From the IMG/VR virus record IMGVR_UViG_3300030012_000508, positions 1 through 33,445 of that record: a stretch of 33,445 nt of DNA; one strand, 5' to 3'. Positions 1 through 29,722 of the stretch are shown piece after piece. Made by a program: the position numbers and the translations under genes. Origin of the DNA: a virus. Within the stretch, counting starts at the first letter, position 1. The number at the start of each line of letters is the position of its first letter. The notes under the pieces were generated by a model that saw nothing but the letters and a program-made list of their open reading frames with translations, did not search any database and was not told the DNA's origin.

Positions 1-23
1 CGACGACCTAAAAATTTTTTGCG

Positions 24-140
24 ACGTATAGATATGGATAGCTTTAGCTATACATTATTATTTTAATTATATATAACGTATATCTTTAGATATACATTTT
101 TATTTAATTATTTAATAACGTATAGATTTATCTATACATT
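24..140. repeat. Three 18-bp TT-centred palindromes with 42-bp spacing
   Basis: Palindromic sites lie at 36-53, 78-95 and 120-137. Sites 2 and 3 are perfect 8-bp inverted repeats around a central TT (GTATATCTTTAGATATAC and GTATAGATTTATCTATAC). Site 1 has one G-A mismatch. Each ends in TATACATT, starting at 49, 91 and 133, so the spacing is exactly 42 bp twice, close to four helical turns. ACGTATA precedes each site, displaced by 10 bp at site 1. The inner stem bases differ between sites but remain complementary. Binding sites for a dimeric protein, origin iterons or extruded hairpins are all possible; the function is inference. Confidence 0.8.
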
Positions 141-294
141 ACTTTTTATTTACTTTTTCTAACTTACTTTTTCTAATCTTAAAATGGTTTAGGGGGGTAT
201 ACCTGTATAAAAAAAGAAAGAAACACATACTAATATTTTTTTCTAAAATTTTTTAAAGTTTTTTGGATCGCTTACTAAGGCGGGTACTATAATA

Positions 295-462
295 TAGAGC
301 TCGGGATACTATATATACTATATACTATAATTACTATATATATATAATATATATATAATATATAATATATATAATATATAATATATATAAATACTATTAA
401 TACTATAAATACTATATATACTACTATACTATATATACTATAGTACTATTATAAAATTCAAC
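295..462. repeat. Low-complexity AT tract (ATACTATA-type), possible unwinding region
   Basis: About 165 bases consist almost only of A and T with scattered C, built from irregular copies of ACTATA, ATACTAT and TATAATAT. A TATAAT hexamer sits at 288-293 just before it, with no convincing -35 box. The tract lies between the palindrome array and the first rightward gene, in the only stretch of more than 300 bases without a gene. Such tracts act as DNA-unwinding elements or promoter regions in many replicons. No open frame of note runs through it, and nothing else in 141-553 is recognisable apart from the octamer GGTATACC at 196-203. Confidence 0.6.
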
Positions 463-553: not shown

Positions 554-772
554 ATGTTTGAAAAAGCTTTAATAGGTGACTATGAGATCAAGGATGTATT
601 CACTAACATTGAAAGATGTAAGCAGATATCCAGCCAGTTAAAGATCCTAGATCTTATTGAACCTAGGTCTAGAGATATTAGTTTAATAGCAGAGTTAGTA
701 TATCGGGTAAATAATATGCCTGAGTTAGAATTAATAGAAATAGACGATTATAGCTTAAACAACCCTAACTAG
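554..772 (+). CDS. Small hypothetical protein before terminase
   Basis: I do not recognise this roughly 72-residue acidic, probably helical protein. The ATG at 554 is preferred because GGAAAGAG lies 8-9 bases upstream. A TTG at 503 and an ATG at 536 are in frame but have no Shine-Dalgarno sequence. Its TAG stop overlaps the GTG start of the terminase small-subunit gene, so the two are probably translationally coupled. It is the first gene of the rightward virion operon, directly after the non-coding control region, so a packaging or early regulatory role is possible but not shown. Confidence 0.55.
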   Translation: MFEKALIGDYEIKDVFTNIERCKQISSQLKILDLIEPRSRDISLIAELVYRVNNMPELELIEIDDYSLNNPN

Positions 773-1530
773 TGGCACTATCAAGAAAGATAAAAGGAGT
801 CACGCACTATGCTTACGAAAGCGAGCTGGAGTTTCGTACGGCACATCCTACTGAAAAACTAATTAAAAACTGGAAAGAAGCCAAAAAAGGTCAGTGGTGT
901 ATTGCAGATGATGGTAAGATAGTGCAAATACTAAAAAGAAAGGCAATGAAAGGAAATAGAATAGAGCAATATTATGTGCGAACTGTTATTGGAATGGTTA
1001 CTATAAAAGATACTAGTACCTTAAAAGGAGAGATAACAGATAATATTTATCGCTTTATAAAGAAAAACACTTATGACTCTAGACTACATGGCGGTATGAC
1101 CAAACAAAAAAAGATATTCTCTAAATACATTGCAATGGGTCTAGATCCAGAGAGTGCTTACATCAAAGCATATCCTAAAACATCAAACTCTGATGATGCT
1201 AGACGTAAATCAAAACTATTATTAAAAAGTAAAACAGTGAGGGAGCAAGTGGATAAAGAAATAGAAGAACTAATGTCAGAAGTTGGTATTACCAAAAGAT
1301 ATTTACTAGAAAGCACTAAAGATGTTGTAGATAAAGTAGATGCCAAAGACAACGATAAACTTAGAGCATTAGAAACATTGATGAAGATATCAGGTATGTT
1401 AAATACAGAAAAGAAATCAGAGTCTATTGCACTGATACAAGAGTTTACTGGCTTCAGTAAAGAGAAACTGAAAGCATTTGAACAGGGCATGCTATCTGAA
1501 AAAAAGAAAGAACTTACCAGTGGTAATTAA
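772..1530 (+). CDS. Terminase small subunit
   Basis: This 252-residue protein is a likely small terminase, the subunit that recognises phage DNA for packaging. Residues about 109-165 fit the Terminase_2-type helix-turn-helix pattern: a helix, then GLDPESAYIKAYP, then a helix rich in K and V (KSKTVREQV). A helical segment for oligomerisation follows. The first 100 residues form a separate small domain (KKGQWCIADDGKIVQIL, YYVRTVIG), which as far as I recall occurs fused to such subunits in marine phages. The start is GTG, overlapping the previous stop by one base. The large subunit follows after one possible small gene, as expected for a ter pair. No DNA target can be read from the sequence. 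Confidence 0.75.
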   Translation: MALSRKIKGVTHYAYESELEFRTAHPTEKLIKNWKEAKKGQWCIADDGKIVQILKRKAMKGNRIEQYYVRTVIGMVTIKDTSTLKGEITDNIYRFIKKNTYDSRLHGGMTKQKKIFSKYIAMGLDPESAYIKAYPKTSNSDDARRKSKLLLKSKTVREQVDKEIEELMSEVGITKRYLLESTKDVVDKVDAKDNDKLRALETLMKISGMLNTEKKSESIALIQEFTGFSKEKLKAFEQGMLSEKKKELTSGN

Positions 1531-1668: not shown

Positions 1669-3261
1669 ATGGACAATTTTAATATTAATCCATCCCCATC
1701 TGAAATGAAAGAGCGAGATGAGGTACTAGCTAAGTCCTATAAAAGTCTTATTTACTTTGGTAGAGCTTTCTTACCAAATGACTTTCTTAAAAAGTCTGCA
1801 TCTCCAGCATTTCACTTTGATGTAGCAGATAAGTTGATATCATCTAAGCCCGGTAGTCGTAGTTGCATTATTATGCCTAGAGGGTTTGGTAAGTCTATAT
1901 TATCAAAAGCCGCTATCATGCATAAACTGGTATTTGCTAGAGAAGACGAACAACACTTTATTGCTTGGGTATCAGAAGAACAAAGTCAGTCTATTGATCA
2001 TTTAAAGTATTTGCGTAATCATTTTGAAATGAACAAAAGACTTCGTTACTACTTTGGCAATCTAGATGGGGGAGCGGCTGGGAAGCGTTGGACTGAAAAA
2101 GATATTGTAACTCCCAAAGGAGATAGATTAATAGCAAAGGGTACTTCTCAAAGACTTAGGGGTCGTGCAGAGGTAGATGTTCGTTATACTGGTATCATCT
2201 TAGACGACTTTGAATCAGAATTAAATACAAAAACACCAGAGCGTAGAGCTGATATTAAGAAATGGATCGTATCCACAGTATATCCAGCATTAGAAGAAAC
2301 ACCCGGTAGAGAAGGTTGGATATGGTTAGCAGGTACAATAGTTCACTTTGATAGTTTCTTACAAACTGTACTAGATGGTAGTAACAAAGCAAAAGAAGAA
2401 AATAGAGAATATCCTTGGAATGTAACATTCAAAAGAGCAATAGAAGATGGTAAATCTATCTGGAAAGAACAATTCTCCTTAAAAAAGTTAGAAGCAAAGA
2501 AAAGAGAGTTTATCGAAGCTGGTCTGGTAAACAAGTTTGCACAGGAGTATATGAATGATGCTAGGGATATATCCAATGCCGCATTTAAAATAGATAGAAT
2601 ACAATATTTTAATGGACAAGTAGAATGTCGTAACAAGTTTAATTATCTGATAGATGGTGAAGATGCTATACCAGTAAACATTTACATTGGGGTTGACCTA
2701 GCGGCTACAGCATCAGAGACATCAGACTTTCAAGTGATACTGGTTATGGCAATAGATTCTAACAACAACCGTTATGTCTTAGAATACTTTAGAGAAAGAA
2801 TACCTACATTTGACGTACCACAAGAAATTATCAAACTGGCAAATAAATATAATCCTGTAAGAAGAGTAACGATAGAAACAGTAGCGGCACAGGAAATGGT
2901 TAGAGATATGGTAACAAGAATGTCTGCTAGTGAGAAAAGATTGATGCCCGGAATCTTCAAAGGGGTTAAACCACCCGCTAGAATAAAAAAGCAAGATAGG
3001 CTCGAAACAAGCTTGGGAGTTATTGTCAATTCTAAAAAACTTTACATTAGAAGGGAAATGACAGAATTAGTAGATGAGTTCTTTGAACATCCCAAACCAA
3101 GAAACGATGATGTAATGGATGCGTTGTATTATGCAGACTACTTTGCCAAAGCTCCTAAGAGTACTAGAACAAAGCGAGAATCATTACTAAATGAAGAAGC
3201 TAGTCCTGTTAGAAGAATCAAAAAGAAAGCTTATAATTGGATGACTGGATCTCGTGCATAA
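1669..3261 (+). CDS. Terminase large subunit (packaging ATPase-nuclease)
   Basis: This 530-residue motor protein drives DNA into the prohead and cuts it. The ATPase half shows Walker A PRGFGKS (residues 70-76), Walker B GIILDDFE (175-182, D179/D180) and a coupling motif LAGTIVH (220-226). The nuclease half is RNase H-like, with acidic residues in YIGVDLA (D343), TIETVAAQ (E403) and NDDVMDALYYAD (D481/D484), so all expected catalytic acids are present. Length is normal for the family. It follows the small subunit and precedes peptidase, portal and capsid genes, the usual head-module order. The start has only a weak Shine-Dalgarno sequence. Confidence 0.95.
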   Translation: MDNFNINPSPSEMKERDEVLAKSYKSLIYFGRAFLPNDFLKKSASPAFHFDVADKLISSKPGSRSCIIMPRGFGKSILSKAAIMHKLVFAREDEQHFIAWVSEEQSQSIDHLKYLRNHFEMNKRLRYYFGNLDGGAAGKRWTEKDIVTPKGDRLIAKGTSQRLRGRAEVDVRYTGIILDDFESELNTKTPERRADIKKWIVSTVYPALEETPGREGWIWLAGTIVHFDSFLQTVLDGSNKAKEENREYPWNVTFKRAIEDGKSIWKEQFSLKKLEAKKREFIEAGLVNKFAQEYMNDARDISNAAFKIDRIQYFNGQVECRNKFNYLIDGEDAIPVNIYIGVDLAATASETSDFQVILVMAIDSNNNRYVLEYFRERIPTFDVPQEIIKLANKYNPVRRVTIETVAAQEMVRDMVTRMSASEKRLMPGIFKGVKPPARIKKQDRLETSLGVIVNSKKLYIRREMTELVDEFFEHPKPRNDDVMDALYYADYFAKAPKSTRTKRESLLNEEASPVRRIKKKAYNWMTGSRA

Positions 3262-3315: not shown

Positions 3316-3708
3316 ATGCCGAGATATTCTAAAAGATCAAAATCTAGATTAGCTACCTGTGATGAGCGTTTACAGGAAGTATTTAATGAAGTAATCAAGC
3401 ATGTGGACTGTTCTATTCTAGAGGGACATAGAAGCAAAGAAAGGCAAAACAAATTATATGATGAAGGTCGTACTAAGGTCAAGTATCCTAATGGTCGTCA
3501 TAACTCTAACCCTTCTAAAGCCTGTGATGTTACTCCATACCCTGTGGATTGGAAGGACAGGGAAAGACAGACCCTCTTTGCTGGTTTTGTTATTGGGGTG
3601 GCTAGGAGCATGGGCTATAATGTGAGATGGGGCGGTGACTGGGATATGGATTTTCAAGTAATGGACAATCGCTTCGATGATTTTCCCCACTTTGAGATTA
3701 GAGACTAA
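3316..3708 (+). CDS. M15-family D-Ala/L-Ala-D-Glu-type peptidase (endolysin-like)
   Basis: This 130-residue zinc peptidase should cut peptide cross-links or stems of peptidoglycan. The M15 signature is visible: EGHRSKERQN (about 36-45), zinc ligands H62 and D71 in GRHNSNPSKACDVTPYP, a WGGDW segment (105-109) and the final ligand H125 in PHFEI, with an acidic residue (D121/D122) just before it. There is no signal peptide or binding domain, so it is a stand-alone catalytic domain of normal length that would need a holin or delivery in the virion. It sits between terminase and portal, away from the small membrane-protein cassette at 16-18.6 kb. Its TAA stop overlaps the next ATG. Confidence 0.88.
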   Translation: MPRYSKRSKSRLATCDERLQEVFNEVIKHVDCSILEGHRSKERQNKLYDEGRTKVKYPNGRHNSNPSKACDVTPYPVDWKDRERQTLFAGFVIGVARSMGYNVRWGGDWDMDFQVMDNRFDDFPHFEIRD

Positions 3709-4802
3709 TGCCGGGTACGACAGACACAGTTAAAGCAATGTTAACTCCCGGTGAATTTGTTATTCGCAAAGAAGCTGTGGATATGATAGGAGTACCCATT
3801 TTGGAAAAATTAAATGATATGCCTGAGGCTGGTGGTCATTCTGAGATAGATAGACTGATAGCACAGGCTACACTAAAGAATATGACTGGCATGTATGGTG
3901 GCGGTATGGTTAATGCAAAGCAGTACATGGGCGGTGGTAAAGTTGATATGTATGGTCATGGTGGTAAAGTAAAGAATCAAATGATGATGAGCTACGAACA
4001 TGGTGGTGAGGCTCATGGTAATCTAAAACCAGTACCAGATGACAATCCCGGACTTACTAAACTACCTGAAAAGGTTAGAAATAAAATGGGCTACATGCAG
4101 GAGGGTGGATTATTAGGTATGATGAAAGGCGGTATGGCTAAAAAGAAGAAGAAATACGGTTATCAAGAAGGTGGCGAAATATTGGGGCTAAATATAACTC
4201 CTGAAAGTGTTTTTCAAGCAGTTTATCAAATGCCAACAGATGATGGTGATAGGTATTACTTAGGAGAAGCTCAAAGACCTTTACCTAATTTAAGTCGTAA
4301 GTTATCTATAAAAAGAGCTATGGATAAAGCTATGAACGCTCCACAAGATTCTATTACCTTTGATATGGCTCAACAAATATTAAACCCTGAAGAAGAAAAA
4401 AGTGGTTTTCTTAAAAAGCTATTAGGTATGCAAGAAGGTGGTGCAGTTCAAGATGATGCTATGATGCTACAGTACTTACAGTCTTTAGAAAATCAACAAG
4501 CTAATCCTTTCGTACCTTTTGATCAAAGACCTTCGAGCTCTGGTGAAATGATGTCACCAATACCAAGTGGTATGGAGCAAGGTGATATGATGAGAATCAT
4601 CAGAGATGAAAGAGAAGTATTAGATATGGAAGATGCTAATCTTCTTAGAAAAAAAGCTCAAAACGCTCTTATGAGATTTAAATTAGATTCTATTATGAAA
4701 GCAGAAGGGTTACAACCTGAAAGACTTGAAAGCATGCCAGCAGATACTTCTGAGTTTATGCCTAGTTCATTAATGTTTAGTCCTAGAGGTATGGGTATTT
4801 AA
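3708..4802 (+). CDS. Glycine/methionine-rich protein with tape-measure-type N-terminal motif
   Basis: The function of this 364-residue protein is unknown. It opens with GTTDTVKAMLTPGEFVIRKE (residues 3-22), closely resembling a motif usually found near the C-terminus of tail tape-measure proteins. The middle has many short glycine-rich elements (MYGGGM, MGGGKVD, HGGKVKN, MQEGGLLG, YQEGGEI, MQEGGAV) and a run of five lysines near residue 145. The C-terminal third is helical and acidic. Both ends overlap neighbours as TAATG (peptidase upstream, portal downstream), so it is tightly coupled to the head genes. A virion protein is likely; Q(E/T)GG elements also occur in the gene at 22234. Confidence 0.6.
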   Translation: MPGTTDTVKAMLTPGEFVIRKEAVDMIGVPILEKLNDMPEAGGHSEIDRLIAQATLKNMTGMYGGGMVNAKQYMGGGKVDMYGHGGKVKNQMMMSYEHGGEAHGNLKPVPDDNPGLTKLPEKVRNKMGYMQEGGLLGMMKGGMAKKKKKYGYQEGGEILGLNITPESVFQAVYQMPTDDGDRYYLGEAQRPLPNLSRKLSIKRAMDKAMNAPQDSITFDMAQQILNPEEEKSGFLKKLLGMQEGGAVQDDAMMLQYLQSLENQQANPFVPFDQRPSSSGEMMSPIPSGMEQGDMMRIIRDEREVLDMEDANLLRKKAQNALMRFKLDSIMKAEGLQPERLESMPADTSEFMPSSLMFSPRGMGI

Positions 4803-6832
4803 TGGATCAAGATCCAAGAGCAAAACAAAACGATGACTTGTATCGCCAGTGGCGAGATGCTCGTTCTGAATGGGATACAGAAGCTAGAAAAGATATAGAC
4901 TTTTACCTTGGTAATCACTTTACCAATGATGAGTCTGATGAACTAGCACAACGTAATCAAGCTGATATACCTATGGATAGGGTATCCTCAGCAATAGAAA
5001 AATTTAAAGCAGTATTAACATCTAGAGCTCCAGCATTTACAATCGTACCCAGAGAAGATTCTGATGTACAGGTAGCCAACTTATGGAGAACTATCATGGG
5101 ATATATATGGCAGAACTCTGATGGTGACTGGCAAATGAAACAAGCAATACAAGACTATGCTGTTACTGGTATGGGTTATATGTATGCTTATATTGATAGA
5201 GAATCAGATTTCGGTAGAGGTGATGTCAAGTTTACTTATTTAGATCCTTTTAGGGTTTACGCATCTCCCAGCTCAAGAGATCGGTGGTTCAGTGACTCGG
5301 ATGGTCTTATCCTTTCTACCATCCTTACTGGTGAACAGGTCGTCAACCTCTACCCTGAATTAAATGATAGTGTAGATCCAGCAACTGGAGAAGAGATACC
5401 CGGATTGATAAGACAACTATCTGGATTTACATACGATGAAGAAGATTACCCATCTTCTCAAAATAGAAACTCAATGAATGTATTTACTCCATCAGAAGTA
5501 AAGGATAAAGATTATTTTGAAGTTCAAAAGTATCAGATACTAGAACGCTTTTATAAAATAAAAGTTCCTTTTTATAGGGTAATAGATATGCAATCTCAAG
5601 AAGAAGAGATACTATCTCAAGAAGAATATGAAAAGTTTGCATTTGAAAACTCTGAAGCAATGGAGATAGGTGCATTTACAGCAATACAAGTATTACAGAC
5701 TAGGGTAAAGGTTTGTGCTAGTTTAGGTGAAGTAGTATTGTATGAACAGATTTTAAATACTGACGAGTATCCTATAGTCCCGCTACCGAATATCTGGACA
5801 TCTACCCCATATCCCAAGAGCGATGTATCCAGAGCTAGACCAATGCAGAGATTATTAAACAAGCTTTGGTCTTTAGCCCTTTCACATGCCCAAGCATCTG
5901 CGGGACTAAAACTTCTAGTACCATTAGGTAGTGTAGATGATATTGATCAATTAGAAAAGGACTGGGCAAATCCAAATGCAGTAATAGAAGTTGATTCATC
6001 ACAGGGTGAACCACACTATCCAGCACCACAACCATTAGCTGGTGAGTTCTATAGATTGATACAACAGTCAGAGTTTTACATAGATTTTATATTTGGTCTG
6101 CCAGAAATGATGCATGGCTTTGCTGATAAAGCTCCTGAGACAGTCAGAGCGACAGAAAGAATGATTGCACTAGGTAGTGAAAGACCTAAATCTAAATTAA
6201 GAGATGTTGAATTTAGTATTAACAAACTTGGTAAGGTTCTTTATAATTTATCCAAAGGACATTACACTTATAAAAAGATTTTTAAGTTAGCTCAACCTAA
6301 TAATAATATTACAGAGGTCATGGCTAATTTTTATACAGATGTAAGTGGTGCAGTTTTAGACCTTAAAAAAGATAGGCACTTACTTGATCAACATGATATT
6401 AGAATCGAATCCGGCTCTACTATGCCTTCTAATAAATATGCAGAACTTTCTGTATATCTTGAGGCATTTCAAATGGGCATTGTGGATCGCTATGAGGTTC
6501 TTAAAAAGAATCCAGAAATATTTGATAAGGAAGGTGTAATGCGTAGAACTGAAGAAAAGCAATTAATGCAACAACAAATGCAGGCTATGCAAGAACAGAT
6601 AAAGAATTTGCAAGGTGACTTGCAGACAGCCCAAAGAGAGTCTGTCAGTGATAGAAAAAGAGTTGAGGTCGAGAAGTTTAAATCTAGACTTAACGAAATC
6701 AATTCTGAATCTAAAGCTGATAGAAGGGTACAACGTAGCAAACTAGAAAACGAGGTGAAGCTCGAGGTGGAGAAATTAGCTGGTAATCTGAAAGATGTTC
6801 AGAGAGAAGTTAGTTCCACTCCAAAAGCCTAA
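4802..6832 (+). CDS. Portal protein (P22-type)
   Basis: This 676-residue protein would form the dodecameric portal at the capsid vertex through which DNA is pumped and the tail attaches. Its size and the N-terminal pattern of a helical wing followed by DIDFYLGNHFTNDES, DIPMDRVSSAIEKF and a TGMGYMYAYID segment fit P22-like portals. The last 130 residues are charged, Gln-rich and predicted coiled coil (RRTEEKQLMQQQMQAM onward), as in P22 portals with a helical barrel. The gene follows the glycine-rich gene by a TAATG overlap and is followed by scaffold and capsid genes, the expected order. Confidence 0.85.
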   Translation: MDQDPRAKQNDDLYRQWRDARSEWDTEARKDIDFYLGNHFTNDESDELAQRNQADIPMDRVSSAIEKFKAVLTSRAPAFTIVPREDSDVQVANLWRTIMGYIWQNSDGDWQMKQAIQDYAVTGMGYMYAYIDRESDFGRGDVKFTYLDPFRVYASPSSRDRWFSDSDGLILSTILTGEQVVNLYPELNDSVDPATGEEIPGLIRQLSGFTYDEEDYPSSQNRNSMNVFTPSEVKDKDYFEVQKYQILERFYKIKVPFYRVIDMQSQEEEILSQEEYEKFAFENSEAMEIGAFTAIQVLQTRVKVCASLGEVVLYEQILNTDEYPIVPLPNIWTSTPYPKSDVSRARPMQRLLNKLWSLALSHAQASAGLKLLVPLGSVDDIDQLEKDWANPNAVIEVDSSQGEPHYPAPQPLAGEFYRLIQQSEFYIDFIFGLPEMMHGFADKAPETVRATERMIALGSERPKSKLRDVEFSINKLGKVLYNLSKGHYTYKKIFKLAQPNNNITEVMANFYTDVSGAVLDLKKDRHLLDQHDIRIESGSTMPSNKYAELSVYLEAFQMGIVDRYEVLKKNPEIFDKEGVMRRTEEKQLMQQQMQAMQEQIKNLQGDLQTAQRESVSDRKRVEVEKFKSRLNEINSESKADRRVQRSKLENEVKLEVEKLAGNLKDVQREVSSTPKA

Positions 6833-7671: not shown

Positions 7672-9045
7672 ATGGCAATATCATATAACAGTGGAACACT
7701 AAAGTCCAGTGATATTACTGCTAGTACTTCCTCTGCTGGTGTTGGACAAGCCCCTGATAGAAGACGAATTTTTAATTTCGGTGACAGAGTTGCCGAATTG
7801 ACTCCTGAAGAGTCACCATTCTTCGTCTATCTAAGTAAGGTTGCTAAAGCACCAACAGATGATCCAGTATTTAGATACTTGGAAAATAGGAATAAAATCA
7901 GCTTCACAGATCGTTCTTTTCTAATTAAAGGAGCAGTTGGTACTGTTGCGGCAGGATCTTCGTATTCATTTACTGTAGATACTTCAGGCGGTGCGGCTGT
8001 AGAATTTTTATTAAAAGGAATGGTTTTCGTGGCTCAAACAGTTGATCGCACAGGCGATGCTGGTATTGGTCACGCTATTGTGAGAGTTGATTCAGCAGTA
8101 ACTCATGGAGCTAGTGATTCTTCATTCACAGGAAAAGTAATTGATCTTTCAAATAGTAACGTATCTGGATACAATTCAGTAGGAGATAACGATACTTGTC
8201 AGATCATTGGTACTTCATTTGAAGAAGGTTCTGGTTCTCCAGACGTTTGGTCAAGTGAATTAGAAGACAACTATGGGTATACTCAAATCTTCAAAACAGC
8301 GGCTGAGATGACAAACACAGCATACGCTACACGCTATCGTGGTTATCCCGATGAGTGGAGTCGTATTTGGGCTTCAAAGCTTCGTGAGCATAAGATTGAC
8401 ATTGAAAGAGCTATGCTCTTCGGTCAAAAAGCTCGTACTGGTGGTATTCAGTACACTGAAGGTTTGGTAGGGCACATTCTAAAGAACGTAAATCCAATCG
8501 TCAATACTGATGATTTCAGTTATAGTTCTGGAAGCTCATACTACAGAAGTGTAGCACAGTCTGAGATGACTTATGATAGATTACTCAGTGATCTTGAAGT
8601 AATTTTTGATCCGGCTCGTGGTGGTGCTTCTGATAAGTTAGTGCTTTGCTCATTACCAGTTATCACATACTTTAATAAGTTAGGTGATGGTAAATTCCTT
8701 GATGCTTCTATGGGGCATAGTAATAATAACTATCGTTATGATATGACTCAAAGACAAGGTGCTTTTGGTCATAGCGTGATGGTTATTGATACTATTCATG
8801 GAAGATTAAACCTAGTTAAAGAGCCTCTATTTAGAGGTATTGCGGCTGGTTTCATGCTAATGGCTGATATGAGTCAAGTATCTTACAGACCTTTAATTGG
8901 TAATGGTATTAATCGTGATACACAAGTAATGACTAACGTACAGGCGGCTGATGAAGATCTAAGAAAAGATATGATCTTAACTGAAGCTGGTCTTGAAGTA
9001 AGTCTTTCTGAGTCTCACGCTTTATTTAACCTAGAAAACGATTAA
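7672..9045 (+). CDS. Major capsid protein (SU10-like, HK97 fold inferred)
   Basis: This 457-residue protein should build the icosahedral shell. The N-terminal pattern RVAELTPEESPFFVYLSKV followed by DDPVFRYLENR is what I know from SU10-type (DUF5309-related) capsid proteins of marine phages. The later RYRGYPDEWSRIWASKLREHKIDIERAMLFGQK helix matches the long spine helix of such proteins. The gene has the usual position after the scaffold and a good Shine-Dalgarno sequence (AGAGGT). G+C is slightly higher than in its neighbours, as often seen in highly expressed capsid genes. Fold assignment is by family knowledge, not computed. Confidence 0.85.
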   Translation: MAISYNSGTLKSSDITASTSSAGVGQAPDRRRIFNFGDRVAELTPEESPFFVYLSKVAKAPTDDPVFRYLENRNKISFTDRSFLIKGAVGTVAAGSSYSFTVDTSGGAAVEFLLKGMVFVAQTVDRTGDAGIGHAIVRVDSAVTHGASDSSFTGKVIDLSNSNVSGYNSVGDNDTCQIIGTSFEEGSGSPDVWSSELEDNYGYTQIFKTAAEMTNTAYATRYRGYPDEWSRIWASKLREHKIDIERAMLFGQKARTGGIQYTEGLVGHILKNVNPIVNTDDFSYSSGSSYYRSVAQSEMTYDRLLSDLEVIFDPARGGASDKLVLCSLPVITYFNKLGDGKFLDASMGHSNNNYRYDMTQRQGAFGHSVMVIDTIHGRLNLVKEPLFRGIAAGFMLMADMSQVSYRPLIGNGINRDTQVMTNVQAADEDLRKDMILTEAGLEVSLSESHALFNLEND

Positions 9046-11807: not shown

Positions 11808-14800
11808 ATGGCTGATATTAACAAGTTTACAACAAAAGAAGTATTAAATAAGGTACTTTTAGATTCATCTGGCAATTCAGTTGCCGCATTTTCACACACA
11901 ACCCAAGAAGCGTTAAACGCTGTATTAGATTCTACAAACAGTAGATTAAATGTATCACTAGTAGGTGGTACAATATCTGGCGATATGACTATAAGTGGTG
12001 ACTTAACTGTAACTGGTAGTACTGCAATAACAACTAACGAGGTTATTCAAGGCACATCAATAATAGATGTAACTAATACTGAAGCATTTCTAGTTAGAAA
12101 AAATTCTGATGCTGGAGATATACTTATAGTAGACACTACTAATAATGAAATAGAGATGTATAATAAAGTTGGTATTAACACAACACCAGATTCAACTTTA
12201 CATATAAAATCAAATACTGCTTCAGAGCCAATTGTTAAATTAGAAAATACAGGAGATAATGCTTTAGCTAATCAGTTAATATTTTTAACTAGCGGTGCGG
12301 CTAATGATAATGATGATTCAGGTGTAATTAGATTTAAAGGAATGAATGATGCTGGAACACCTGAAGAAATAGAATATGCGACAATATATGTAAATCACGA
12401 TGATGTATCTGATGGAACTGAAGATGCAACTATGTTTTTTAGAGTACAAGGAAATGGTACTTTAGGAAATAGACTTGTACTTGATGGTAACTCTCGGATT
12501 AGTCTATCTAATAATGCTGGTGGTAATAACAACACAGTATTTGGCAAATTAGCTGGAGCAGATTTAACCTCAGATGCTGACCACTCTGCTTTTTTTGGAG
12601 AACAAGCTGGAACAAATATATCAACAGGAGATTATAATACTGCTATAGGTTCATTATCTTTACATGGAAGTGATTCAACTGCACACACAGGAACAAATAA
12701 TACTGCTCTTGGATATAAAGCAGGTTTTAGTATACAAGGAGCGGCATCTAATAATACTTTTATTGGGTCAGATGCTGGTGCATCTATTAATCATGTCAAT
12801 GCAGATGATAACGTAATCATTGGTGCATTTGCTGGTACTGGTGGAGCTGGTCAGTTTTCAAATAATGTTGCTATCGGTTCTAATGCTTTAAATTCTACTG
12901 GTAGCACCGCTGTACAAAAAGTAATAGCAATAGGAAGTAATGCTTTAACTGGAGCTAATCACGCTAATGCTTCTTTTAGTGTTGGAATTGGACATCAAGC
13001 ATTATCAGCAGTTACACAAGGTAGTGCTAATTTTGGTGTTGGATATCAAGCTGTGAATAGTACAACTACTGGTAGCTTTAATACAGGAATTGGTAATAAT
13101 GCTGGTACTTTTAACATTACTGGAAACAATAATACTTATGTTGGTTATCAAAGTGGACTTGGAGCGTATGAAGCTGGTTCACAAAGTAACAATACTGCTG
13201 TAGGGTATCAAACTTTAAATGATGTAACAACTGGCTCTAGCAATGTTTCTATAGGTTCTTATAGTTTAGATGCTTTAACAACTACAAATAATATGGTTGC
13301 AGTTGGATATGAATCAGGTTCAGCAGTTAATCATGCTGGTGCAGAAGGTGGAACTTATATAGGATATCAAGCTAGTAAAGCAAACACAAGTGGTGGACAC
13401 AATACTTCGGTTGGATATCAAACCTTAACAACTAATAGTATATCGGCTTATAATACTGCTATTGGTTCTCAGGCATTAAAAAGCGTAACTGCAGAGTCTA
13501 ATACTGCTGTAGGTTATAGAGCTGGTTATGGAGCAACATCCAATGGCGGTAATACAGCAGTTGGTTACAAATCATTTCACAATGTTGGTAATGCAAGTGG
13601 TACTTATAATGTAGCTATTGGTTACGAAGCATTAATGGGTGGAACTGGAACTGCTACAGATAACGATGCTAATAGTAGTGTTGCAATAGGTTATAGAGCC
13701 TTACAAGATGTAGTAGATGCAGATCACAATATAGCTATTGGATATTTAGCATCAACAAACATTGTAGGTGGAGAATCTAATATTGCTATAGGTTCAAGTG
13801 CATTAACTGCCGCAACAGATAACACAAAAAACATTGCTATTGGATTGTCTGCTTTATCATCTGCTGATTCAGGCGAAAATTCAAATGTAGCTATTGGCTT
13901 TCAAGCTGGTAATGCTATAAACCACTCATCATCAGACCAAAATGTAATTATAGGAACAAACGCTGGAACTGGTGGAGCAAATCAATTCGACTCAAATATA
14001 GCAATAGGTTCAAATGCTTTGAATAGCACTGATAATAATGTTATGAGTGGTGCAGTTGCTATAGGATATAATGCTCTTACTTCTTTGACATCAGGTGCTT
14101 CTAATACAGCGATTGGATATGAGTCAATCAAGGATTTAACAACTGGAACTGCAAATACAGCACTAGGTAGAAAAGCATTGAACTCTGCCGATGGGGCAGA
14201 AAGTAATAATGTCGCTATTGGTTCTTCTGCAATGCAAAATGCTAATAATGATAGCACAATAAAAAATGTGGCAATCGGTGCAGATGCTATGTCAGGTGTT
14301 ACTAGTGGTAATGTAAATAGATGTATTGCTATAGGTTATGGAGCTATGGATGGCTCTGGTAGTATTGATGGACAGCAAAATATTTTTATTGGAGATGGAG
14401 CAGGTGGTGGAGCTTGGACAACAGCCGCTTCTAATTCAAATGTCGCTATAGGTGCTACTGCTATGTCAGCGGCTCTAAATGGTGCTTTAGGAAATACTGC
14501 TTTAGGACATGATACATTAAAAGCTCTTACAACTGGAGATAATAACGTAGCGATTGGAAGAGTTTCAGGTACTGCTATGACCACTGGAAGTAATACTACT
14601 TCAGTAGGGGCATACTCAGGAGATGCATTAACTGTAGGTGGGAATAATGTTTTAATGGGTTATTTTGCTGGTAGTGCAATGGTAGAAGATAGGCAATGTA
14701 CAGCAGTTGGTTATCTATCATTAGAAAATGCTAATGGCGGTGGCTCAGACGGCACTGCAACAGATACAAATAATACTGCAGTAGGAGCAAATACTGGTAG

Positions 14801-15347
14801 TACATTAACAAATGGTGTAAATAATGTTATATTAGGTGCGAGTGCAAATGTTTCAACTTCAGCCGCTGTAAATCAAATTGTAATCGGTAAAGGTGCTACT
14901 GGAACAGGAAACAATGAAATTGCTTTAGGTGATACAAGTATATCAGCTATTAAAGCACAAGTTACAAGTATTACTGCATATTCTTCTGATGAAAGAACAA
15001 AGAAAGATATAAAAGATTATGATTTAAAAGGAGTAGACTTTGTAGATGAGTTACAATTAAAAACATATATTTACAAAAATCCAGCAGATTTTCCAGATGA
15101 AATAAGAAGTTCAAAGTGGGATGAAGATGGTGCTGAAAGACCAGAAGATCCAACTGAAGTTCAGGTTGGATTAATTGCACAAGAAGTAGAAGCGGCTCTT
15201 TCAAAGCATGGAATTAGCAATACAGAAACTTATGCCCCTACTCAAGAAAGTGGTATAAAAACTTTAACTTATGGAAATCTTATTTTTCCTTTAATTAAAG
15301 CAGTTCAAGAATTATCTGCAAGAGTAAAAGAATTAGAATCAAAGTAG
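11808..15347 (+). CDS. Tail fibre with YadA-head-like repeats and S74 chaperone domain
   Basis: This 1179-residue trimeric fibre should contact the host surface. Residues 1-60 are a short attachment segment. Next come GGTISGDMTISGDLTVTGS repeats of a beta-spiral. Residues about 243-1045 hold roughly 45 copies of a beta-roll unit with core (V/I/T)AIGxxA(L/G), mean spacing about 18 residues, as in YadA-type adhesin heads. The C-terminus (about 1059-1179) is a Peptidase_S74 intramolecular chaperone with the SDERTK motif, catalytic dyad S1060 and K1065 and a final coiled coil; it should trimerise the fibre and cut itself off just before S1060. A good Shine-Dalgarno sequence (AAGGAG) precedes the ATG. 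Confidence 0.9.
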   Translation: MADINKFTTKEVLNKVLLDSSGNSVAAFSHTTQEALNAVLDSTNSRLNVSLVGGTISGDMTISGDLTVTGSTAITTNEVIQGTSIIDVTNTEAFLVRKNSDAGDILIVDTTNNEIEMYNKVGINTTPDSTLHIKSNTASEPIVKLENTGDNALANQLIFLTSGAANDNDDSGVIRFKGMNDAGTPEEIEYATIYVNHDDVSDGTEDATMFFRVQGNGTLGNRLVLDGNSRISLSNNAGGNNNTVFGKLAGADLTSDADHSAFFGEQAGTNISTGDYNTAIGSLSLHGSDSTAHTGTNNTALGYKAGFSIQGAASNNTFIGSDAGASINHVNADDNVIIGAFAGTGGAGQFSNNVAIGSNALNSTGSTAVQKVIAIGSNALTGANHANASFSVGIGHQALSAVTQGSANFGVGYQAVNSTTTGSFNTGIGNNAGTFNITGNNNTYVGYQSGLGAYEAGSQSNNTAVGYQTLNDVTTGSSNVSIGSYSLDALTTTNNMVAVGYESGSAVNHAGAEGGTYIGYQASKANTSGGHNTSVGYQTLTTNSISAYNTAIGSQALKSVTAESNTAVGYRAGYGATSNGGNTAVGYKSFHNVGNASGTYNVAIGYEALMGGTGTATDNDANSSVAIGYRALQDVVDADHNIAIGYLASTNIVGGESNIAIGSSALTAATDNTKNIAIGLSALSSADSGENSNVAIGFQAGNAINHSSSDQNVIIGTNAGTGGANQFDSNIAIGSNALNSTDNNVMSGAVAIGYNALTSLTSGASNTAIGYESIKDLTTGTANTALGRKALNSADGAESNNVAIGSSAMQNANNDSTIKNVAIGADAMSGVTSGNVNRCIAIGYGAMDGSGSIDGQQNIFIGDGAGGGAWTTAASNSNVAIGATAMSAALNGALGNTALGHDTLKALTTGDNNVAIGRVSGTAMTTGSNTTSVGAYSGDALTVGGNNVLMGYFAGSAMVEDRQCTAVGYLSLENANGGGSDGTATDTNNTAVGANTGSTLTNGVNNVILGASANVSTSAAVNQIVIGKGATGTGNNEIALGDTSISAIKAQVTSITAYSSDERTKKDIKDYDLKGVDFVDELQLKTYIYKNPADFPDEIRSSKWDEDGAERPEDPTEVQVGLIAQEVEAALSKHGISNTETYAPTQESGIKTLTYGNLIFPLIKAVQELSARVKELESK
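12534..14940 (+). repeat. Coding repeat array of about 45 beta-roll units
   Basis: This segment of the fibre gene encodes tandem units with core xAIGxxAL and period of about 14-25 residues. DNA copies are diverged, so the array is old or under recoding pressure. A longer unit, xINHxxxDxNVIIGxxAGTGGAxQF ending in AIGSNALNST, occurs twice about 1.13 kb (376 codons) apart, near 12778 and 13906, showing a segmental duplication. Length variation by recombination between units is plausible. Confidence 0.85.
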
Positions 15348-25684: not shown

Positions 25685-28600
25685 ATGTCTGCTAAACCAG
25701 AACAATACGATCTTTACGATAAGACGTTAGACATATTATTTAAAAACCCACAATTAGCAACAGATAATATCCTACAACAGGTAGATGCTACTGGTGACTA
25801 TCTAGAATCTTCTTATGATGTTGATGATTCATTTGACCCTTTAAAGTTTATATCAGAAAGAGATTCTGAAATAGAAAAGCTTAGTACTTCTAGTCAGGAT
25901 GAAACTATATATGGGTATCAGCCTCCTAGTTGGATGCCAGACTGGGTAAAAGCTGGATATCAAAATAGTATTACAGGACTTACAGAGAGAGTTAAGAATG
26001 GACAGCCCATAAAAAATTATGATTTAAATTTACTGGAAGATGTTGGTGCTACGTTAATTTCTTTTTTACAACCATTAGACCTTGCAACTATGGTAGCTGG
26101 TGGTGGTATAGGTGGCTTTGGAGCTAGGACTGCATTGAAAGAAGGTGCAAAGCAAGCTATTAAACAAGGATTGAAAAAGACATCTACTAAAAAATTAATT
26201 GCAAATAAGATAGATGATAAAGTAGCAATGCAAGTATTGGGCAGTGCTCCCGATCAAGCTATAAAAGCAATGATAAAAGCAGAAATACCTGAAGCTACAG
26301 CTAGGAGAGCAGTACAAAATGCCGCTCCTAGGGTGGTTCATAAAGCATTGATACAGGGTGCAGGTGGTGGTGTAGGGTTAGGTTTTTATAGTGGTTTATC
26401 AACTGCGTTAGCTACAAAGATAGAGCAGGGTGATGTAGATGAAGTAGTAGCCCTAAAAGAAGGTTTGAAAGGTGCTGTACTTGGTGCAGTTACAAGTGGT
26501 ACACAACCAGTGTCAAGAGCTTTTTTTAATAAATTAAAACCTGCAACAACTAAGGCACAAAAAATAGTACAGGAAACAGCAGTTAAGGCAATAGAAACAG
26601 CAGAGTTTGGTACAATAGCACCAGTTCTTAGTGGTGAAGATATTAATGTAGAAGGATATGTACATGCGGCGGCTACTATAGGTGGATTAACAGCACAGAG
26701 GTATGCATTTGGAGCGGCTAAAAAAGGTTACAATGCAATGCGTACTAAAAAATATGATAGTATTCACGATGCTGAAACTGCCGCTAGATATGCCATGGAG
26801 CAAAGAGGTGGTCAAAGAGGAGAGTTATCTCCACAAAGAAATATTATAGAACTAGAAGAAGTTTTTGTAAATAAAAATGGAACTAGATATGATAAATTAA
26901 AATTCGATGATAAAAATAAAAGAGTTACTTTAAGAAATAAAAAAACCCAAAAAGAAGAAACTGTTTCTTATGATAGTTTTAATAGAGTAATGTTTAGAAG
27001 GGAGAGCTCTGCTCAGACACCAGAGGGTTTGGCTAGAGGTAGAAATACTAAGATATCTAAATTGCAAAAACAATTAGGTTTTAGTGATGAAAAAATAAAA
27101 GAGTATGCTGGTGTTGTAAAAATAGAAGGAACTATAGATAAAAAAGATCCAAGGGGATTAAAGGGTTTAACAGCAGTTGAACAAGTAAAGTTACTAAATG
27201 AATTAAGACATGAGAAAAGAGTTTCTGATTTAAAAGATTTTTTTGTAAAAGCTGGATGGGAAGGGGATTTATTACCTAAAAAAAGATTTTTAGATGAGTT
27301 AATGCCAACACTACCTAAAGTTTGGAGACAGACAAAAAATAGAGTATCTACTCAGCTTGGAAATCTTGTTATAAAAGAATTAAATAAAGCTGATGCTTTA
27401 GAGTTAACAACATTAGGAACATTTTTACAAGAATTAAAAGCGACTGGGCTTTTAGAAGGAGGTTTGTTTAGAAAGAAAAAACAGGCTAAAAGAGCAAGTG
27501 AGATAGCTGATGCATTAGAAGACCCTAGGTATAATCCAAATAATACTAAACTAGGTAGGCAACTTCCACACTTTGATGAAGTAATAAAGATAAAGAAAGT
27601 GCTAAAAAATATATGGGATAGAGCTGAAGAAGCTGGTATTGATCTAGGTAGGTATGAAGAAAATTATTTTCCTCACATGATAAAACCTGAATTTTTAGCA
27701 AAGTTTACTAAGGATATAGCAAAGATTGGTTCTGAAAATCCATCTATAATTTTTGACAATCCATCAACTACTCAACGAAAATCTTTTCAAGATCTTGTTG
27801 TTAGTTATATAAAAAATAAAAAATTAGACCCTAGTACGATAGTAGTATTAGAAGATTTGGGAAATGTAAAAAAGAATATAAAGAAAGACTCAAGAGGTAA
27901 TGTAATAAGCGAAACTATTACAGACAAACCTAGGGATTATGCTAGAAAAGTATCTCAAGCACTTTATGAATTAAGTCAAAATGTTACTGTTGAGTACCAT
28001 AATGTAGCTAAAAATGCAGAGATATCTAGGACTGCTGAAAAAATACCTAAAGCATTTTTAGAAAGAGATGCTAGACTCGTGCTTGCTAGATACACTAAAC
28101 AGTTAGCTAGAAGAATATCATTTGTTGAAATGTTTGGAAGGAATGGTGAAAAATTATATGGTAAGATAGCTGGATTAAGAAAAGCCTCTAAAGATCAGGT
28201 TACTCAAAATTTAAAACTTTCAAAAAAATTAGCAGAAGAAGCTAGGTTGTTAGACCAATTATTTAAATCATACACTAATCAAATAGAAATAGATCCTACT
28301 TATAACTGGAAAACTCCTACTGCAAGAAAGTTTTGGAGTGATGTTGTCAATTTAGAAATAGGTACAAAGATAGGATTGGGTTTTGCTGTAGTTCCTAATA
28401 TAACTCAGTTGTTTATATCTACAGCAGTTAAGACTGGTTATATGCCTATAATAAAGGGTACATTAAAAATGGCTATGCCAACTAAAGAAGGTAAAAAATA
28501 CAGAGATGAGATAAGAAAGTCTGGTGTATCTAATTTAAGTGTATTTCAACTTATTGCTGGGCTTGAACCATCAGAGGGGTGGACTTCTACATTTGCTAAT

Positions 28601-29722
28601 GTAACTACAAAGGCTACAGGGTTTCAGTTTGCTAATAAAATAAATCAATTAGTATCAGCGGCGGCGGCTAAAGAATGGATATCCGCATTACAGAAAACAG
28701 CTAATAATAAGAGTTCATTGGTAGATATAGGAATACCATCTATTTTTGGAGGTAGAAGAATTAACAGAAGGCAATGGGCTATTGATAATTTAAAGGCATT
28801 AGGTATTGAGAATAGTAAAGTTAATTTTAATTCTAAAAAGGGAAAGCAGTTAGAATTAGAAGCTATGTATAGATTTTCAAGAGATAGTCAGTTACAGAGA
28901 AATGTAATTAACGAAGCATCAGCTATGCTTGATCCTCGTTGGCGACCATTCTTTTTGTTTAAAAAGTTTGGTTACAAACAATTTAATTGGATGAGAGAAC
29001 AATTAACTATGGAACTAAAGCGTGGTAATATATTCCCTATGTTAAGACTAGCGGCGGCTGGTATGGCTGGTGGAGAAATGGTTACTTGGGCAAGAGATTA
29101 TTTAGCAGAGTACATATCAGGTAATAAAGTATATGATGACAATAGATTTTTATTGTTTAAAGATTTGCCAGAGGCAGTTCCTATGACATCTCAAGGTATG
29201 AGTCAAGATGTTGATATGAGAAACTTTACAACAAATGATTTTATAGATAGGTTTGCTTCTGTTGGTGCATTTGGTGTGATTGGAGATATTGTAGCAAATG
29301 AAAATAGAATAAGGGCATTAGAGTTTGCATTTAAACCAGCGGTAGTTCAAGACTTTGATAAGATATGGAGTGCTTTTACTAGAACATTAAATGATTCAAA
29401 AGATTATGGTATAGGTGCGGCACTAAGAGCTCCTAAATATATTGCACCATTATTAGGAACTATACCAAGGAGAGGATTAGAAAGATTTGAGAGAAAGCTT
29501 GCACCCGGACAGAGAGAATCTTATGTTAAAAGAATAAAGCAAATAAGACTACCTGAGATTAAGCAAGCTATTATAGATGGGGATAGTGATAAAGCTTTTA
29601 GAATTATTCAAAATTATAATAATGCTTTTGGTAATGAGAATCCAATCTTACCAGAGGACTGGAGTCCTACAAAAATAACAGATTACATGATTAATAAAAT
29701 AAAAAAGAAACAAAGACCTTAA
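25685..29722 (+). CDS. Giant internal virion / ejection protein
   Basis: This 1345-residue protein is the largest in the window. It has hydrophobic Gly-rich stretches near 115-145 (SFLQPLDLATMVAGGGIGGF) and 218-240. A Lys-rich helical middle contains the motif ENYFPHMI (near residue 660), which I know from large phage internal and polyvalent proteins. The C-terminal half has conserved-looking LGFAVVPNITQLFIS and FFLFKKFGYKQFNWMREQ. No lysozyme or transglycosylase motif was seen. Podoviral proteins of this kind are ejected before the DNA and form a channel across the envelope. The gene ends the rightward block; its stop overlaps the stop of the leftward operon. Confidence 0.65.
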   Translation: MSAKPEQYDLYDKTLDILFKNPQLATDNILQQVDATGDYLESSYDVDDSFDPLKFISERDSEIEKLSTSSQDETIYGYQPPSWMPDWVKAGYQNSITGLTERVKNGQPIKNYDLNLLEDVGATLISFLQPLDLATMVAGGGIGGFGARTALKEGAKQAIKQGLKKTSTKKLIANKIDDKVAMQVLGSAPDQAIKAMIKAEIPEATARRAVQNAAPRVVHKALIQGAGGGVGLGFYSGLSTALATKIEQGDVDEVVALKEGLKGAVLGAVTSGTQPVSRAFFNKLKPATTKAQKIVQETAVKAIETAEFGTIAPVLSGEDINVEGYVHAAATIGGLTAQRYAFGAAKKGYNAMRTKKYDSIHDAETAARYAMEQRGGQRGELSPQRNIIELEEVFVNKNGTRYDKLKFDDKNKRVTLRNKKTQKEETVSYDSFNRVMFRRESSAQTPEGLARGRNTKISKLQKQLGFSDEKIKEYAGVVKIEGTIDKKDPRGLKGLTAVEQVKLLNELRHEKRVSDLKDFFVKAGWEGDLLPKKRFLDELMPTLPKVWRQTKNRVSTQLGNLVIKELNKADALELTTLGTFLQELKATGLLEGGLFRKKKQAKRASEIADALEDPRYNPNNTKLGRQLPHFDEVIKIKKVLKNIWDRAEEAGIDLGRYEENYFPHMIKPEFLAKFTKDIAKIGSENPSIIFDNPSTTQRKSFQDLVVSYIKNKKLDPSTIVVLEDLGNVKKNIKKDSRGNVISETITDKPRDYARKVSQALYELSQNVTVEYHNVAKNAEISRTAEKIPKAFLERDARLVLARYTKQLARRISFVEMFGRNGEKLYGKIAGLRKASKDQVTQNLKLSKKLAEEARLLDQLFKSYTNQIEIDPTYNWKTPTARKFWSDVVNLEIGTKIGLGFAVVPNITQLFISTAVKTGYMPIIKGTLKMAMPTKEGKKYRDEIRKSGVSNLSVFQLIAGLEPSEGWTSTFANVTTKATGFQFANKINQLVSAAAAKEWISALQKTANNKSSLVDIGIPSIFGGRRINRRQWAIDNLKALGIENSKVNFNSKKGKQLELEAMYRFSRDSQLQRNVINEASAMLDPRWRPFFLFKKFGYKQFNWMREQLTMELKRGNIFPMLRLAAAGMAGGEMVTWARDYLAEYISGNKVYDDNRFLLFKDLPEAVPMTSQGMSQDVDMRNFTTNDFIDRFASVGAFGVIGDIVANENRIRALEFAFKPAVVQDFDKIWSAFTRTLNDSKDYGIGAALRAPKYIAPLLGTIPRRGLERFERKLAPGQRESYVKRIKQIRLPEIKQAIIDGDSDKAFRIIQNYNNAFGNENPILPEDWSPTKITDYMINKIKKKQRP

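Follow-up and report, generated by a model that had tools for sequence, protein, structure and literature searches.

What does a short series of palindromes at the left edge of a phage contig do, and does the pairing of its bases matter as well as their identity? The window studied here, by which we mean the whole stretch of DNA that was analysed, is a linear viral record of 33,445 bases and represents a P22-like podovirus contig of an uncultured phage. The following genes could be assigned:

772-1530 (+): terminase small subunit (terS; PF03592, PHROG 51), first gene of the late operon
1669-3261: terminase large subunit
4802-6832: P22-like portal
7672-9045: SU10-type major capsid protein
11808-15347: tail-spike protein with peptidase S74 chaperone

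A leftward gene block at the window's right end encodes a PD-(D/E)XK nuclease, a RusA-like resolvase and a single-strand-binding-like protein. Pfam and PHROG scans of most proteins, many of which have no family, recognised no replication initiator, loader or polymerase, and no integrase was recognised among the scanned proteins. The phage collection searched has nothing close to this lineage: among 50,697 phage records, the large terminase has distant relatives only (about 26% identity for the best among the matches listed). A late protein of 1345 aa, encoded at 25685-29722, is probably an internal virion protein; neither the phage records nor PDB contain a match to it, and no Pfam family was accepted. 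The GC-skew switch in the window coincides with gene direction and, being confounded with it, is by itself no mark of an origin.

Results

The original prediction had described three 18-bp palindromes, which are found at the following positions:

36-53 (+): hairpin/dyad 1, GGATAGCTTTAGCTATAC; GGATAGC-TTTA-GCTATAC, with one G-A mismatch
78-95 (+): hairpin/dyad 2, GTATATCTTTAGATATAC; GTATATC-TTTA-GATATAC
120-137 (+): hairpin/dyad 3, GTATAGATTTATCTATAC; GTATAGA-TTTA-TCTATAC

Their predicted coordinates were correct and the dyads are well beyond chance. With up to one mismatch, GTATANNTTTANNTATAC matches three times in the window compared to 0.05 expected, three matches were obtained in 0/100 shuffles, and 0/2000 dinucleotide shuffles of bases 1-180 contained three hairpins (7-bp stem, 4-nt loop) at equal distances, with all distances of 25-60 allowed. 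Start-to-start distances are exactly 42 and 42 bp, as had been claimed for the window. The description of the unit itself needed revision: ends of TATAC are present at sites 2 and 3, but the left end of site 1 reads GGATA, and the resulting G37-A52 mismatch renders this site an imperfect palindrome. What had been taken for a TT centre is better read as a TTTA loop on a 7-bp stem, the outer part of which is fixed. The two inner stem pairs vary among the three dyads, always as complementary pairs. Taken one by one, the hairpins have little stability as DNA (-2 to -3 kcal/mol); hence, a cruciform would need supercoiling or protein.

The dyads are surrounded by further elements:

1-9 (+): first GCGACG(A) box, incomplete, with the contig starting one base into it
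21-27 (+): GCGACGT box, 15 bp before hairpin 1, start to start
150-294 (+): non-coding block with a G-run and ACACATACTAATATTTTTTT, ending in GGCGGGTACTATAATA
301-460 (+): AT-rich tract of TATATACTATA-type repeats

That the array appears to open the non-coding region is thus partly an artefact, as the contig starts inside the first box and the DNA of a relative (L012) continues leftwards, with the box complete (GCGACG at 4610, 22 bp before the second box). Aligned array genomes have one GCGACGT box 15-16 bp before the first hairpin and usually a second box 18-24 bp further left, and some distant array-less relatives retain a TTTGCGACGTATA box in the same region. To the right of the array, relatives show a constant order of conserved block, AT-rich tract, small gene and terS. 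Alignments revealed the block at 150-294 in array-bearing and array-less relatives alike; it is probably the core of a late promoter or control region. The counterpart of the AT-rich tract in L012 falls to 5-11% GC. In distant relatives (L187-L227), an inverted repeat, TACTATA-tatac-TATAGTA, is conserved in this tract about 346 bp upstream of terS.

With the terS product as query, we obtained 40 related loci; for the terS alignment, the best 80 of 141 relatives were kept. A search of related contigs had been proposed to find the same array, and indeed 17 relatives carry it. Together with the window, this amounts to 18 genomes and 42 copies with six cores:

GGATAGC/GCTATAC: 23/42 copies
GTATAGA/TCTATAC: 10/42 copies
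GTATATC/GATATAC: 6/42 copies
GAATAGC/GCTATAC: 1/42 copies
GTATAAC/GTTATAC: 1/42 copies (AC/GT inner pairs; L027)
GTATAAT/ATTATAC: 1/42 copies (AT/AT inner pairs, 3-nt loop; L041)

Two or three 18-bp dyads are present in 17/18 array genomes and a single copy in L032. The TTTA loop is found in 41/42 copies, the remaining one (L041) having 3 nt, and a mismatch of the type seen at site 1 recurs in 23/42 copies. The claim that inner bases change as pairs holds throughout this set: the variable pairs are complementary in all six cores, including the AC/GT and AT/AT pairings that are additional to those of the window and were seen only in relatives. Among 17 distinct aligned copies, 94.1% of the stem cells were paired and both sides had changed in 10 stem cells compared to 2.5 in shuffles (0/500 as high), whereas slid-alignment controls yielded 14-56% paired cells. 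All pairing changes in the core stem are full Watson-Crick swaps without G-U. For the five half-sites seen, the probability that random right-hand pairs give five matches is about 3 in 10,000. As independent changes are few, with about five pair types, we regard the covariation as strong but not overwhelming. Part of it could arise if two half-sites are held similar, or if quasi-palindromes are corrected by template switching; the conserved G-A mismatch disfavours the latter. Since the relatives keep the pairing while the letters change, the array is a real working site. The pairing is thus kept in related genomes, but the exact 42-bp spacing is not general: copies are 41, 42, 43, 44, 45 or 47 bp apart, and the argument that a 42-bp phase places all sites on one helix face fails with this drift.

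Outside the family, the first hairpin gave eight scattered matches in the genome collection, judged unrelated from their contexts and offering no prophage or host clue. Among the matches listed for the general pattern in other viral contigs, most were single sites judged to be chance or unrelated, and four pair matches looked unrelated as well. None of nine pattern-bearing contigs checked for window proteins had any, and two further DUF932 scans returned no additional array genomes.

The left end of the window falls inside the element; in relatives, the array lies between a DUF932 gene (PF06067) and the late operon. This gene points towards the array in L012, L036 and others and is divergent in L020 and others. 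Examples of the slot in either orientation are L012 3493-4542 (+), L036 4141-5187 (+), L020 1761-2702 (-) and L008 4237-5172 (-); identity between alleles can be as low as about 26-30%, and the flanks are conserved. A separate family of promoters serves the leftward early genes (GGAACT, 17 bp, TATA(A/G)T-like, frequently with CG before it); as a -35 box for a housekeeping sigma factor, GGAACT is unusual. Such promoter-like sites are located at 1632, 1929, 2598, 2881 and 3159 (-) in L012 and at 2397, 3435, 3729 (-) and 4108 (+) in L036, in which DUF932 carries a copy on its own strand. Other hairpins were noticed in this neighbourhood. One, without T-run, lies just downstream of the DUF932(+) stop codon (L011, L012, L033-L039, L041), its arms changing in step (GCTTGGG/CCCAAGC, GCTGGAG/CTCCAGC, GCTGGGAA/TTCCCAGC). 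A second hairpin, about 650-900 bp upstream of terS in L190, L200, L220, L221 and L223 and there probably in the leader of a divergent DUF932 gene, has the paired changes CTACATA/TATGTAG, CCTCATA/TATGAGG, CCCTATA/TATAGGG and CCTTATA/TATAAGG.

The array is only the right half of a module, the left half of which carries direct repeats of the ACGTGCACAA type. On the left of DUF932, array genomes carry either these repeats or a related element with GCGACGT, and the array-less close relatives L008, L009, L013 and L028-L030 have TCCTCCGT-type repeats instead. About four TTTCCTCCGTNNAGTTGT-type direct repeats take the place of ACGTGCACAA in L008 (~4000-4130) and L028 (~3570-3700); these may represent the same module with another specificity. 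Comparing the left element with the right GCGACGT box at 37 loci, we found both at 18, neither at 14 and only the left element at five. The right box was therefore always accompanied by the left element (18/18) and occurred in 0/14 loci devoid of it, a coupling to which the physical linkage of the halves adds and for which the left-motif pattern was partly chosen after seeing the data. Among phylogenetically independent pairs, 4-5/6 agree with the coupling and none opposes it (p 0.06-0.13), such pairs being too few.

Comparison of L036 with L028 illustrates how the module moves: to the right of the array, and once more in the stretch from -2337 to -2109 (counted from terS), the two match at about 96% identity, and between these flanks nothing detectable is common to them. 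On the terS tree, presence of the array requires seven changes, at least five of which are forced by supported branches. We conclude from both observations that the module is exchanged as a cassette. DUF932 can also be exchanged alone with both sides kept (L023/L020, L036/L032); in L023 and L020, it differs in allele and orientation between common sides. What the array does must be replaceable, given that close relatives lack it despite near-identical late genes. No strictly array-specific early gene was found within about 5 kb upstream.

Several candidates were rejected. A TerS binding site (pac/cos) as the main idea is contradicted by L004 and L005, which lack the array and have a TerS 97% identical. 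A fixed genome end does not agree with family contigs that break at differing places and run across the region (L012, L222, L227). DUF932 as binding factor was discarded since both cis halves persist through changes in its allele and orientation. A structural model of DUF932 (mean pLDDT 73) gave no convincing match in PDB, the best hits being E 0.08 with Foldseek and, with VIA-align, Z 4.9 at an rmsd of 4.3 over 102 residues.

Discussion

Why should a phage keep paired bases in a short array that close relatives can do without? We infer that the array is a cis-acting element operating as DNA rather than as RNA, since it is retained whether DUF932 is divergent or faces it. Judged from sequence comparison, it is most likely of phage replication-origin or operator type. 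The earlier suggestion of an origin or operator array beside an AT tract is the best fit, now extended by the boxes, the direct repeats on the left and the early/late junction.

Between these two, we tentatively favour a lambda-type replication-origin array, with protein binding as part of the proposal, because palindromic sites, initiator-like boxes, far-side direct repeats, an AT-rich tract and the early/late junction together fit an origin best. In this reading, the two or three (once one) palindromes, which have the leftward early genes on one side and the rightward late operon on the other, would be sites of protein recognition. A putative initiator would bind the GCGACGT boxes and the palindromic iterons, the resulting strain would help to open the adjoining AT-rich DNA, and formation of a hairpin or cruciform would likely be part of recognition.

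The closest rival, which we consider somewhat unlikely, is an operator or enhancer array in which a dimeric regulator encoded by phage or host would bind the palindromes and control the switch between early (leftward) and late (rightward) transcription. The position between divergent transcription units, the operator-like look of 18-bp dyads at about four-turn spacing, the early promoters (GGAACT, 17 bp, TATA) that adjoin the element in divergent groups (L020 2842), and a modular exchange resembling regulatory-region swaps all agree with it. However, half-sites of operators usually vary independently, whereas 0/42 copies here have an asymmetric core at the variable inner pairs, and the centre is among the most conserved parts of the dyad. 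Spacing is not kept in phase either, and no regulator gene was recognised, with none strictly array-specific in the ~5 kb upstream.

Covariation and a fixed loop are classic signs of RNA, and the array could be transcribed, as the 3' part of a DUF932 message or as a leader, into tandem hairpins serving processing, stability or as a protein or sRNA target. We judge this to be quite unlikely. The same hairpins are more stable as RNA (-3.9 to -4.9 kcal/mol where the loop is TTTA), many genomes have the array behind a DUF932 gene of the same strand, and other hairpins in the phage family show paired changes by eye. Yet the array is also kept upstream of a divergent DUF932 promoter (L019-L021, L024, L032), where no promoter for it is apparent; positions 1-540 of the window contain no terminator-like site or intrinsic terminator, and the core stem is free of G-U. 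The window has no gathering-level Rfam match, and only two sub-threshold matches, neither over the array, were obtained for L012 2800-5500.

Quasi-palindrome correction can yield paired changes without selection. The array might thus have no function and be a tandem duplication of a 42-bp unit, with palindromes perfected by template-switch mutation, as the copies are clearly tandem duplicates of variable number (1 to 3). This is improbable: the element persists, within a drifting spacer, in genomes with TerS proteins of as little as about 70% identity; copy 1 retains its G-A mismatch instead of having it corrected; and the coupling of boxes, array and left repeats is maintained. DNA hairpin promoters of the N4 kind, extruded and read by a phage RNA polymerase, share the pattern of fixed plus covarying pairs but are very improbable and already close to refuted, given loops of 4 nt (one of 3 nt), sigma-type promoters of the early genes' own, and largest proteins (1345, 1179 and 869 aa) without an RNA polymerase family, the longest being far shorter than the ~3,500-residue N4 enzyme.

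Returning to the origin reading, it would provide a sequence handle on replication in a lineage without recognisable replication genes and a reason why the region is swapped so often. A more far-reaching view, which we regard as doubtful, is that of a swappable two-sided replication or control module whose tandem DNA hairpins are read by their shape, the fixed TTTA loop and the pairing of the stem, with no N4-type polymerase involved. Phages would then trade the left repeats and the matching right hairpins as a set, irrespective of the gene enclosed by them. In any case, covariation as evidence of selection on base pairing itself is uncommon for a phage DNA element, and the array could serve as a natural test case, outside N4, for the recognition of hairpins in duplex DNA.

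Among known systems, the pT181-type plasmid origin, for which initiator-enhanced cruciform extrusion is cited in PMC3176155, also has an inverted repeat at the (here putative) origin. It differs in having one hairpin instead of several short ones, and no rolling-circle initiator was recognised here. Lambda-type OR/OL operator arrays likewise place serial palindromic sites between divergent transcription units; in contrast to them, half-sites here change only in matched pairs, the centre is strongly conserved and no repressor is recognisable. N4 has three early promoters with hairpins that extrude at physiological supercoiling and whose non-conserved stem bases matter only for pairing (PMC4496689). 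Our array resembles them in its three short hairpins with conserved fixed bases and other stem bases that need only pair; it differs in the TTTA loop compared to a loop of 3 nt, in sites only about 42 bp apart with sigma-type early promoters elsewhere, and in that no giant T7-like virion RNA polymerase was recognised. Lambda origin iterons are 19-bp imperfect inverted repeats beside an AT-rich tract, in 4 to 6 copies (PMC7466680). Differences to the lambda origin are that no O-like initiator or loader was recognised here, that the array lies outside any initiator gene, that inner stem pairs covary, that the spacing is about 42 bp, and that a second direct-repeat set is found beyond the DUF932 gene. 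What both have in common are a tandem series of short, imperfect inverted repeats, 19 bp long in lambda and 18 bp here, that are centred on A/T (PMC7466680), a variable copy number and an adjoining AT-rich tract, here at 301-460 with a putative role in unwinding.
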